Positions 4,469 through 11,999 of a stretch of DNA of 23,256 nucleotides are shown here, piece by piece. Source of the stretch: a virus; IMG/VR virus record IMGVR_UViG_3300007344_000257, positions 1 through 23,256 of that record, one strand, 5' to 3'. The notes under the pieces were generated by a model. The model saw only the letters and a list, made by a program, of their open reading frames with translations. It was not told the origin of the DNA and searched no databases. A program made the position numbers and the translations under genes. How positions within the stretch are numbered: position 1 is the stretch's first letter; each line of letters opens with the position of its first letter.

Positions 4469-4764
4469 GCCCGCACCTTGGCGGTGCCGGTGAGGCGGAC
4501 GGGCGTTATTGCGCTGGTCCAGTTATGCTTCGCGTAATTAAGAAGTTCGCCTTCGGTGGCAAAGTTCGTGGTCAGGACGTTTCCGTACTTGTCGATTGCG
4601 TGCCAGCGCGTCACCTTCACCTCTCTGGGGAGAGAAGGCAGCAGTGCCTCGGCGGCTTCCACCAAAGGCCAAAAGTCGCTGATCTTGAGGGCATCAGAAC
4701 CGGCACGGCGGCAATCGCGCGCAGCCCGCACAAGCTCTTCCAGCTTCTCCGCGTCTATGCTCAT
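4465..4764 (-). CDS. Hypothetical protein with a duplicated phage module
   Basis: 99 residues from MSIDAEKLEELVRAARDCRR. The start is fixed by an ATGA overlap with the Cro-like gene and by GAGG five bases upstream; a longer frame upstream lies inside the Cro-like gene. The first 45 residues (AARDCRRAGSDALKISDFWP, LVEAAEALLPS) resemble the start of the protein at 10237-10602 (ARAIRDAGSDVLDLAGFWPL), so the same small helical module occurs in both early operons. The C-terminal half has VTRWHAIDKYGNVLTTNFAT, which suggests a beta-rich fold. Function unknown. Confidence 0.65.
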   Translation of the reverse strand: MSIDAEKLEELVRAARDCRRAGSDALKISDFWPLVEAAEALLPSLPREVKVTRWHAIDKYGNVLTTNFATEGELLNYAKHNWTSAITPVRLTGTAKVRA

Positions 4765-5012
4765 GACGCCCTCGCCTGCTTCTTCGGCGCGGACGCCTTC
4801 CGCTCTGGCTTCACGCGCGGCTTGGGGAGCTTGATGCCGTCCTGCTCGGCAATGGCCTTCAGTTCGCGCGTCCACCAATGGGGGAAGTGCCCCGTGTCGC
4901 CGTACTGGGCGCTGGAAATCGTGGAGACAGCCCGACCTGTGCGAGCCGCCATCTTTCGGATGCCGCCAAACCGCGCGATTGTGTCGGCTGCGGGAAGTTC
5001 GAGCTTGTTCAT
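4761..5012 (-). CDS. Cro-like HTH regulator
   Basis: 83 residues from MNKLELPAADTIARFGGIRK. The stretch AADTIARFGGIRKMAARTGR then AVSTISSAQYGDTGHFP fits a small Cro/YdaS-type helix-turn-helix with its recognition helix at about 27-38; the C-terminus is a Lys/Pro-rich tail. It is the first gene of the leftward operon, divergent from the repressor, which is the usual Cro position. I chose the ATG at 5012 because the promoter-like -10 element ends seven bases before it, implying a leaderless mRNA. An ATG at 5024 with a weak GGAAA site, or TTG at 5048, would be needed if transcription starts further upstream. It probably binds the shared operators and opposes the repressor. Confidence 0.65.
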   Translation of the reverse strand: MNKLELPAADTIARFGGIRKMAARTGRAVSTISSAQYGDTGHFPHWWTRELKAIAEQDGIKLPKPRVKPERKASAPKKQARAS

Positions 5013-5019
5013 GTACGGG

Positions 5020-5048
5020 AACATGGCCGATTTCCGCACACGACGCAA
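5020..5048 (-). promoter_or_regulatory. Leftward early promoter (PL-like)
   Basis: On the minus strand TTGCGT (5048-5043), a 17-base spacer and CATGTT (5025-5020) form a plausible sigma-70 type promoter. The spacer contains one copy of the operator (5027-5037). The layout mirrors the rightward promoter at 5933-5961 almost base for base (TTGCGC, 17, CATATT), which makes each more credible. The expected start of transcription falls on or next to the ATG at 5012. Confidence 0.55.
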
Positions 5049-5068: not shown

Positions 5069-5113
5069 ACTTTCAGCAGTTCAAACGCTGACTCAGTGAC
5101 GCACCCCGCATGC

Positions 5114-5119
5114 TAGAAT
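5114..5119 (+). promoter_or_regulatory. Possible -10 element of the repressor promoter
   Basis: TAGAAT lies 30 bases before the repressor ATG, and the GGATAGG ribosome site falls between them. No good -35 hexamer is found 16-18 bases upstream (ACTCAG or similar), which would fit a promoter needing activation by a bound regulator. Weak call. Confidence 0.3.
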
Positions 5120-5148
5120 TAGTCGAATTACCCGCGCTACGGATAGGC

Positions 5149-5814
5149 ATGAGCAAGATGCCTCCCAAGACAGTGACGCCACGGCCCTGGCTGGAGCAGC
5201 GAATCCACGCGGTCGGCAAAAACAAGATTGACCTTGCCCGCGCGCTGGGTCTCAATAATGCCCGCGTCCATGAGATGATCTCCGGGGGGAGACGGATCAA
5301 ACTTAGCGAAATGGATCGTATCGCGGCGTTTCTGGATTGGACCCGCGAAGAACTTTTCCGACACGAAACCGGGCTCTCCCCCGCCTCCACTGAAATTGTA
5401 CAAGTGGAGAATGTCGAGATTGACTACGGGCGCACTTTTGATCTGCCGCTCTACGGGGCGGATGATCTAGGGGGCGGCGTCTTTGCCATGAGTGAGAAAC
5501 CCGTAAACAGTATCGATCGGTCTCCCGCCCTGAAGGGCAACAAGGCCGCTTATGCCGTCTATTGCGCCGAGGACTCACTCGCCCCTCGATACGAGCGCGG
5601 TCAAACTCTCGCGATCGACCCGACTCGCCCCGTCGCCCCCGGCAATGATGTCCTGTTCGTGAGCCGGGATGGAAAGTCGCGCTGCATCCGGCGTCTGGTC
5701 GCCGTCCTGCCGAGCGAATGGCGCGTGCAGCAGCTCACCCCTCCTCGCACCTACAAAATGGCAAAAGCCGAATACCCCACGGCACACAAGATATTCGGCT
5801 CCCGCACGCTCTAG
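5149..5814 (+). CDS. CI-type phage repressor, S24-like
   Basis: 221 residues from MSKMPPKTV; GGATAGG five bases upstream and the likely -10 at 5114 favour this ATG over one at 5110. Residues about 15-67 form an XRE-type helix-turn-helix (KNKIDLARALGLNNARVHEM, ISGGRRIKLSEMDRIAAFL). A linker leads to a LexA/CI S24 domain: LPLYGADDLGGG, then YAVYCAEDSLAPRYERG with the nucleophile-position Ser at 143, and CIRRLVAV where the family usually has VKRL. The catalytic Lys position is therefore Arg (181), and no Ala-Gly or Cys-Gly cleavage pair is seen in the linker. The domain may serve only for dimerisation. It should hold the lysogenic state by binding the flanking operators. It stands alone on the plus strand between divergent early promoters. 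Confidence 0.85.
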   Translation: MSKMPPKTVTPRPWLEQRIHAVGKNKIDLARALGLNNARVHEMISGGRRIKLSEMDRIAAFLDWTREELFRHETGLSPASTEIVQVENVEIDYGRTFDLPLYGADDLGGGVFAMSEKPVNSIDRSPALKGNKAAYAVYCAEDSLAPRYERGQTLAIDPTRPVAPGNDVLFVSRDGKSRCIRRLVAVLPSEWRVQQLTPPRTYKMAKAEYPTAHKIFGSRTL

Positions 5815-10795: not shown

Positions 10796-11155
10796 ATGTC
10801 AGATTCAACTCGCTCCAAGGTATTAGAGGTGATGGCGGAAGCCGTGAGGGTTTCACGGATCAACGACGTGTACGACGCCGACGAAATCGCCTCCGACATT
10901 CTCGCGCACCTATCTGCAAAAGGGATGGCGGTCGTGCCGGTGGAACCGACTGCCGCGATGTTGGACGCCCTGCACGACAAGGTTTTGATTAGGGCAGATC
11001 CGGCGCTGCGCGAGTGCAGCATACTGAACGACCGCGAGACTTACGCCGCCATGCTCTCCGCCTCCCCTTACGGGAAAGCGCCGATGCAGGAAGCATCGGC
11101 GGAGCGCGAAGCGCGTAGCGAACAAATCCCCCCAGGGAAGGAGGAGAGCAAATGA
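10796..11155 (+). CDS. Hypothetical phage protein
   Basis: 119 residues from MSDSTRSKVLEVMAEAVRVS. This ATG has GGAG nine bases upstream, whereas an ATG at 10781 has no ribosome site. The central segment MAVVPVEPTAAMLDALHDKV is a motif often seen in phage proteins of unknown role; the C-terminus is charged (AEREARSEQIPPGKEESK). It is coupled to the next gene by ATGA. Cytoplasmic, function unknown. Confidence 0.6.
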   Translation: MSDSTRSKVLEVMAEAVRVSRINDVYDADEIASDILAHLSAKGMAVVPVEPTAAMLDALHDKVLIRADPALRECSILNDRETYAAMLSASPYGKAPMQEASAEREARSEQIPPGKEESK

Positions 11156-11400
11156 GCGAGCGCAACTCAATCCCCTACCCGCCACGGGGGCTCAGCCGGG
11201 AAGAGGCGGCCCACTATATCGGCGTCGGCGCGACGACCTTCGACGGGCTGGTGCAGGACGGCCGGATGCCGAAGCCCATGAGGCTTGGCAAGCGTGTGAT
11301 CTGGGATCGCCTGAAGGTCGAGGCGGCCTTCGTGGATCTGGACGAAGGCCGGGAGAACGTGATTGATCGTGCCTTGCGGCTGGCTGGCAGCCGCCGGTAG
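11152..11400 (+). CDS. AlpA/excisionase-like HTH protein
   Basis: 82 residues. GLSREEAAHYIGVGATTFDG followed by LVQDGRMPKPMRLGKRVIWD is the winged-helix pattern of AlpA and phage excisionase-type regulators, with the basic wing at about 42-52. It starts by ATGA overlap and lies directly upstream of the integrase fragment, where an Xis gene is expected. It could direct excision or regulate the integrase. Since the integrase appears cut off, an excision role may be lost in this genome. Confidence 0.75.
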   Translation: MSERNSIPYPPRGLSREEAAHYIGVGATTFDGLVQDGRMPKPMRLGKRVIWDRLKVEAAFVDLDEGRENVIDRALRLAGSRR

Positions 11401-11409
11401 CTTTAGGCC

Positions 11410-11691
11410 ATGGACAACCGCCCCTTTCTCTCCAGCTACAAGGACCGCCACGGAAAGACGCGCTGGCGATTCCGGCGGGGGAAGGCTGGCCGCCCTATGC
11501 CGGGCGCGCCGGGCGATGAGGCATTCGAGATTGCCTACGACGACGCCCTGAACGGCCGTGCGAGCGCCAAGGTCGTCTCCCATCCGAACAAGGCATTGCC
11601 GCGCACTCTGCGGGCCGCCTGGAGACTTGCCCCGGCCATCAGGAACGCCCCCAGCCGCAGAGCCGTTCGCCCTTCTCGTTGTGGGCTATAA
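11410..11691 (+). pseudogene. int: Integrase N-terminal fragment
   Basis: The first 75 residues (MDNRPFLSSYKDRHGKTRWR, RPMPGAPGDEAFEIAYDDAL, ALPRTLRAAWRLAP) match the arm-binding N-terminus of alphaproteobacterial tyrosine recombinases, which are normally about 350-400 residues. After about 11634 the frame simply reads the opposite strand of the spanin gene and stops at 11691. The core-binding and catalytic domains (Arg, His-x-x-Arg and Tyr) are absent. The break coincides with the stop of the Rz1-like gene at 11639, a sharp module boundary. The ribosome site is weak (AGG two bases before the ATG). I judge it a non-functional remnant; a short arm-site-binding product is possible. Confidence 0.65.
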
Positions 11692-11836
11692 TGGCCCTCT
11701 CCGTCCGCTCTGCCATCCGATCGCTTGGCGCAAAATAGATCGGCTTGGCGACAAGGCAGAACGAGTCAGCGCTCCCATTTCCGGCGCAGCCTGCCAAGCT
11801 CGTCAGCGCCAGCACCATCAACGCGGTTTTCGACAT
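11639..11836 (-). CDS. Rz1-like outer-membrane spanin lipoprotein
   Basis: 65 residues. MSKTALMVLALTSLAGCAGN is a lipoprotein signal peptide with lipobox LAGC (Cys at 17). After the lipidated Cys comes a short periplasmic part with a Cys (SFCLVAKPIYF) and the ending EKGERLCGWGRS, typical of phage o-spanins. It overlaps the i-spanin gene by about 70 bases in another frame, the usual Rz/Rz1 nesting. With the i-spanin it would fuse inner and outer membranes in the last step of lysis. It is the last gene of the late operon and meets the integrase fragment tail to tail. Confidence 0.8.
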   Translation of the reverse strand: MSKTALMVLALTSLAGCAGNGSADSFCLVAKPIYFAPSDRMAERTERAIIAHNEKGERLCGWGRS

Positions 11837-11999
11837 TACGGGCCTCCGTGGCCTGTTGGTTAATGCGTTCGGCGGTTTCGGCTCGCTCCGCCTTCCGTCC
11901 GATGCCGATGAGCTTCAGGACGGCAATCAGGAGGAGGCCGACGAAGGCCCCCACGAAGGCGACCTTGGCCCAGATCCCGGAGAGCCAAACGGGGATCAC
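11766..11999 (-). CDS. Rz-like inner-membrane spanin
   Basis: 77 residues. One N-terminal transmembrane helix (about 9-32, WAKVAFVGAFVGLLLIAVLK) is followed by a long charged coiled-coil segment (RKAERAETAERINQQATEAR), the expected layout of an i-spanin with its helix in the inner membrane and the coil in the periplasm. It starts by ATGA overlap with the endolysin stop and contains the start of the Rz1-like gene. Shorter than lambda Rz (153 residues) but similar in size to many phage Rz proteins of alphaproteobacteria. Confidence 0.75.
   Translation of the reverse strand: MIPVWLSGIWAKVAFVGAFVGLLLIAVLKLIGIGRKAERAETAERINQQATEARNVENRVDGAGADELGRLRRKWER

Follow-up and report, generated by a model that had tools for sequence, protein, structure and literature searches.

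It is very likely that a single deletion in a temperate ancestor removed most of the integrase gene (int), and with it the inferred phage attachment site (attP), from the environmental bacterial virus IMGVR_UViG_3300007344_000257, while the repressor gene was kept; the resulting phage would be unable to integrate. The window analysed here is the whole 23,256 bp stretch of DNA corresponding to positions 1–23,256 of that record.

BLASTP analysis of ORF 11,410–11,691 revealed it to have 72% amino acid identity over 79 residues (E = 4e-36) to the intact 359 amino acid integrase of L008 (IMGVR_UViG_3300020044_007367). Its first 71–78 residues also shared 42–53% identity with the integrases of L002, L003, Agrobacterium phage Rivra and Microcystis phage Mae-JY35, and the residues invariant in this integrase family (P5, R13, H14, R22, F38, Y42 and W70) were all present. 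Sequence comparison therefore confirmed the ORF as the N-terminus of a tyrosine integrase belonging to a family known from Hyphomicrobiales prophages, and a reading made from the sequence alone, which had described a tyrosine recombinase cut to about 75 residues, was borne out. The last residues of the 93 amino acid ORF were unrelated to integrases. The remnant retained the N-terminal features of the family and was devoid of the catalytic domain of a functional tyrosine integrase; R208/R209, K231, H291, R294, H317 and Y326, which were invariant in five full-length relatives, were all missing from it. A six-frame search for PF00589 returned no matches in the window, nor any in the sister contig L021, and a tblastn search of the window with the C-terminal 279 amino acids of the L008 integrase gave nothing significant (best E = 0.48). 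Together, these searches found no displaced C-terminal piece of int in the window or in L021.

The closest relative at the int locus was L008, which encodes xis, int, Rz1, Rz and endolysin in the same order as the window. The two sequences also shared convergent lysis genes, an excisionase-like gene upstream of int (81% identity) and the N-terminus of int (72–76% identity), but L008 differed in having a full-length integrase, of the kind the earlier reading had proposed to look for at this position, followed by a 234 bp spacer between int and Rz1. Compared to the L008 layout, the window was missing approximately 843 bp of int and the 234 bp spacer, or approximately 1.08 kb; the deletion size and breakpoints are approximate, as L008, with an int of about 76% nucleotide identity, stood in for the parental sequence. 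A part of the lysogeny region was thus lost while the flanking gene order remained that of an intact relative. Alignment of the window with L008 int (BLASTN) ended at 11,630 bp, although a loose extension could be drawn to between 11,638 bp and 11,647 bp. As the stop codon of Rz1 occupied 11,639 bp–11,641 bp, the join lay within about 10 nucleotides of it, which agreed with the earlier observation that the integrase homology ends at the Rz1 stop codon.

The C-terminal end of Rz1 in the window was LCGWGRS, whereas the Rz1 proteins of L008 and L013 finished no more than two residues from the 'LC' motif. This longer tail was in keeping with a new Rz1 end made by the join, and the last Rz1 codons and stop codon probably derive, as judged from the alignment, from the int side. 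The remnant and Rz1 ORFs overlapped tail to tail by 53 bp (11,639 bp–11,691 bp), and no terminator-like site was found between the convergent operons in this interval. Loss of a terminator along with the spacer was ruled out, since the L008 spacer did not contain a terminator-like site either. The features of the locus and of the retained lysogeny genes are listed in Table 1.

Table 1. Position, strand and supporting evidence of the window features discussed in the text
Feature	Position (bp)	Strand	Evidence
Divergent small ORF, Cro candidate	4761–5048	-	Position only
CI-like repressor	5110–5814	+	HTH and Peptidase_S24; retained
Excisionase-like HTH gene	11,152–11,400	+	Directly upstream of int; phrog_66 (E = 2e-6), phrog_9834 (E = 1e-4)
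int remnant	11,410–11,691	+	93 aa: 73–79 int codons, then ~14 out-of-family codons antisense through the Rz1 3′-end
Deletion junction	11,631–11,656		int homology secure to 11,630, possible to 11,647; Rz1 family tail ends at ~11,657 (codon C60)
Rz1-like spanin subunit	11,639–11,836	-	phrog_1275 (E = 1e-17)
Rz-like spanin subunit	11,766–11,999	-	phrog_1026 (E = 1e-4); 64% to L013
Endolysin (phage lysozyme)	11,996–12,805	-	PF00959 (E = 1e-27)

The earlier reading had attributed the truncation to an exchange of modules, in which a recombination event combined the early arm of one phage with the lysis arm of another and happened to cut int. The xis and int sequences of the window were indeed nearest to L008 while its endolysin was nearest to L013 (86% identity), and at the DNA level the Rz gene matched that of L013 and barely that of L008. 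The locus was also mosaic, with several kinds of integrase sharing <30% identity with one another found among the relatives. The integrase of L013 was of a different kind (341 amino acids) and was 98% identical to that of the more distant phage G021; a third kind was common to G008, G019 and G023, and a fourth was present in G011. The near-identity of the integrase in two otherwise different phages (L013, 3791 bp–4816 bp; L149, 1092 bp–2117 bp) is a sign of cassette transfer. In these sequences the int locus has changed often. However, flanks of mosaic origin are commonplace among these phages, and in L008 an intact int is already flanked by the genes found on either side of the join, in the same order, so that a plain deletion of approximately 1.08 kb is enough and an exchange is not required. 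Module exchange as the cause of the truncation is possible but unlikely; the lysis side may still have been exchanged, given that Rz and endolysin are nearer to those of L013.

The deletion left other lysogeny genes in place. As had been noted from the sequence, the window kept a switch region and a possible excisionase gene: the putative repressor combined an HTH domain with Peptidase_S24, as expected of the CI-type repressor of an integrating temperate phage, and the excisionase-like gene corresponded to the one upstream of the intact L008 int. The divergent ORF regarded as a Cro candidate had no family match. These intact genes would also suit a phage that has remained temperate by persisting outside the chromosome as a plasmid-prophage, with the repressor kept for that purpose, a lifestyle suggested in the earlier reading and known from phages that carry parABS in place of the integration cassette (PMC7157519). 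Searches for another integrase or for parAB, which that reading had recommended, were carried out on the window, which represents about two thirds of the genome, on its two sister contigs and on relatives, in which alone the remaining part was seen. No ParA (PF13614) or ParB (PF02195) was found in the window, the sister contigs or the relatives G009, G018, G023, G021 and G011, so that within the sequence examined there was no partition pair at or near the integration cassette, and the int position was filled by nothing else. A second recombinase of the serine type (PF00239) was likewise absent from the window, the sister contigs and the relatives covering the missing part of the genome. A plasmid-prophage lifestyle is consequently quite improbable. 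Other genes encoded by the window included a Lar-like restriction alleviation protein (9596 bp–10,240 bp), a GapR-like DNA-binding protein (2372 bp–2833 bp), a DnaA C-terminal-like protein (3632 bp–4285 bp), a PAPS reductase (20,457 bp–21,179 bp) and an acyltransferase (22,241 bp–22,792 bp).

It is very improbable that the 93 amino acid remnant still works as a gene, producing alongside Xis an N-terminal DNA-binding fragment of the integrase that serves as a small regulator or dominantly blocks the integration of related phages. Comparison with L008 gave dN/dS values of 0.17/0.72 for the remnant and 0.11/0.97 for xis. There was no sign of decay in the remnant from these values, but they date nothing, because most of the divergence between the remnant and L008 is older than the deletion. 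No relative was found to use the short protein as a whole gene. A plasmid search for a stand-alone short homologue gave only Mesorhizobium plasmid pMLb (L180), and this candidate was rejected as a broken gene since the rest of the recombinase lay directly downstream. Between 1474 bp and 2627 bp, pMLb carries an integrase of the same family in two pieces, a short ORF and an ORF for the C-terminal recombinase part, and the gene is probably broken.

The integrase family of the remnant is present in Hyphomicrobiales genomes, and the position of attachment sites was examined in relatives. Among bacterial loci of this family, 21 had a tRNA, which in 18 cases started 61–106 bp beyond the int stop codon. 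The complete phages Rivra and Mae-JY35 contained stretches of 16 and 21 nucleotides, respectively, that were identical to the 3′-end of tRNA-Met and lay 59–95 bp past the int stop codon. No 14-nucleotide stretch of the window matched the tRNAs that the relatives use. The att core of L008 itself was not found, as a DNA search of four Hyphomicrobiales genomes gave chance-level matches only, and no closer lysogen was present among 397 Hyphomicrobiales genomes (best match 53% identity). A short echo of the start of int after the L008 int stop codon was rejected, its score being no better than background. Judged by its position in the family, attP was very probably lost together with int. The attP-like core of Mae-JY35 (L005, 7140 bp–7160 bp) was the stretch of 21 nucleotides identical to a Hyphomicrobiales tRNA-Met 3′-end, in a comparison that did not include Microcystis tRNAs; this sequence match may indicate that the true host of Mae-JY35, which was recorded from Microcystis, is an associated alphaproteobacterium.

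The absence of the catalytic domain and the very probable absence of attP suggest that the phage is unable to integrate on its own, which supports the integration defect proposed from the sequence. That reading also put forward a dependence on another integrase. Integration through one provided in trans by a second prophage would be favoured by the retention of xis and by the frequency of other elements with this integrase family in Hyphomicrobiales. It would nevertheless require attP, which in this family lies next to the 3′-end of int, the end lost here, and no tRNA-derived core was traced in the window. As attP was very probably lost, a helper integrase would be left without a substrate, and rescue in this way is highly improbable.

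Two sister contigs bore on whether the join is genuine. L021 (IMGVR_UViG_3300007640_000507; 16,970 bp) aligned with the window between 6270 bp and 23,239 bp with 99.79% nucleotide identity (34 mismatches), and the section from 10,531 bp to 13,797 bp, which includes the junction, was identical. L028 matched the window between 13,905 bp and 23,256 bp with 99.97% identity and extended 2.9 kb beyond it; the junction was outside its span. An assembly or amplification artefact at 11,630 bp–11,656 bp, the first of which had been named beforehand as a possible refutation, is scarcely credible because L021 carries the identical join while differing from the window at 34 sites elsewhere, even though both contigs are metagenomic and may come from related samples. 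L021 gives strong, though not conclusive, evidence against an assembly error confined to the window. The mismatches between the window and L021 were clustered, with 8 in 71 bp (10,460 bp–10,530 bp) and approximately 20 in 300 bp (22,834 bp–23,133 bp), which suggests allelic recombination or fast-evolving stretches.

The proposed ancestor was temperate and podovirus-like and probably infected an alphaproteobacterium; in it, one deletion would have run from int codon 73–79 to the last codons of rz1. This would have taken out the core-binding and catalytic regions of the integrase and the int–rz1 spacer, presumably with the attP core inside it, and left behind an N-terminal int fragment overlapping rz1, an intact xis and the CI-like repressor. 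Such a simple deletion could have arisen by aberrant excision of a prophage or in a replicating genome. The phage would now be lytic, or would enter a short-lived, non-integrated repressed form; with the repressor retained, short-lived repression or immunity may still be possible. The window phage seems to represent a recent and ordinary intermediate stage in the loss of lysogeny towards a lytic life. It offers a snapshot of the loss of integration, in which int and probably attP went in one step while the repressor and excisionase stayed, and intact, swapped and integrase-free relatives are available for comparison with it. It also cautions that an 'integrase' match in a viral contig need not imply a temperate phage.

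Among known phages, Rivra and Mae-JY35 were similar to the window in having an integrase of the same family with an excisionase-sized gene just upstream, but encoded a full-length integrase with a tRNA-Met-derived core just downstream. The more distant relative G018 (IMGVR_UViG_3300006805_000019), a 34.7 kb genome complete by its 123 bp terminal repeat, had structural proteins 44–85% identical to those of the window and, like it, no integrase between the early and lysis genes; unlike the window, it also had no S24 repressor and no int remnant. G018 probably represents a phage of this group that is lytic by nature. Its record (L147/L148) is listed as linear despite the terminal repeat. Integrase-less temperate mycobacteriophages such as RedRock, in which a parABS cassette replaces the integrase (PMC7157519), share with the window phage a temperate-type genome with the integrase missing from its usual position, but have parABS where the window has nothing. 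The Streptococcus thermophilus phage TP-778L has only a truncated int, which arose by aberrant excision of a prophage that has the whole gene (PMC3952083). Like the window phage it has a truncated integrase gene, and it is viable and was grown lytically; the recombination partner in TP-778L was a second truncated integrase gene of the host, whereas in the window the join was to rz1 and no repeat was evident. A truncated int in a phage has thus already been published for TP-778L, and the window case is ordinary in kind and involves no new mechanism.
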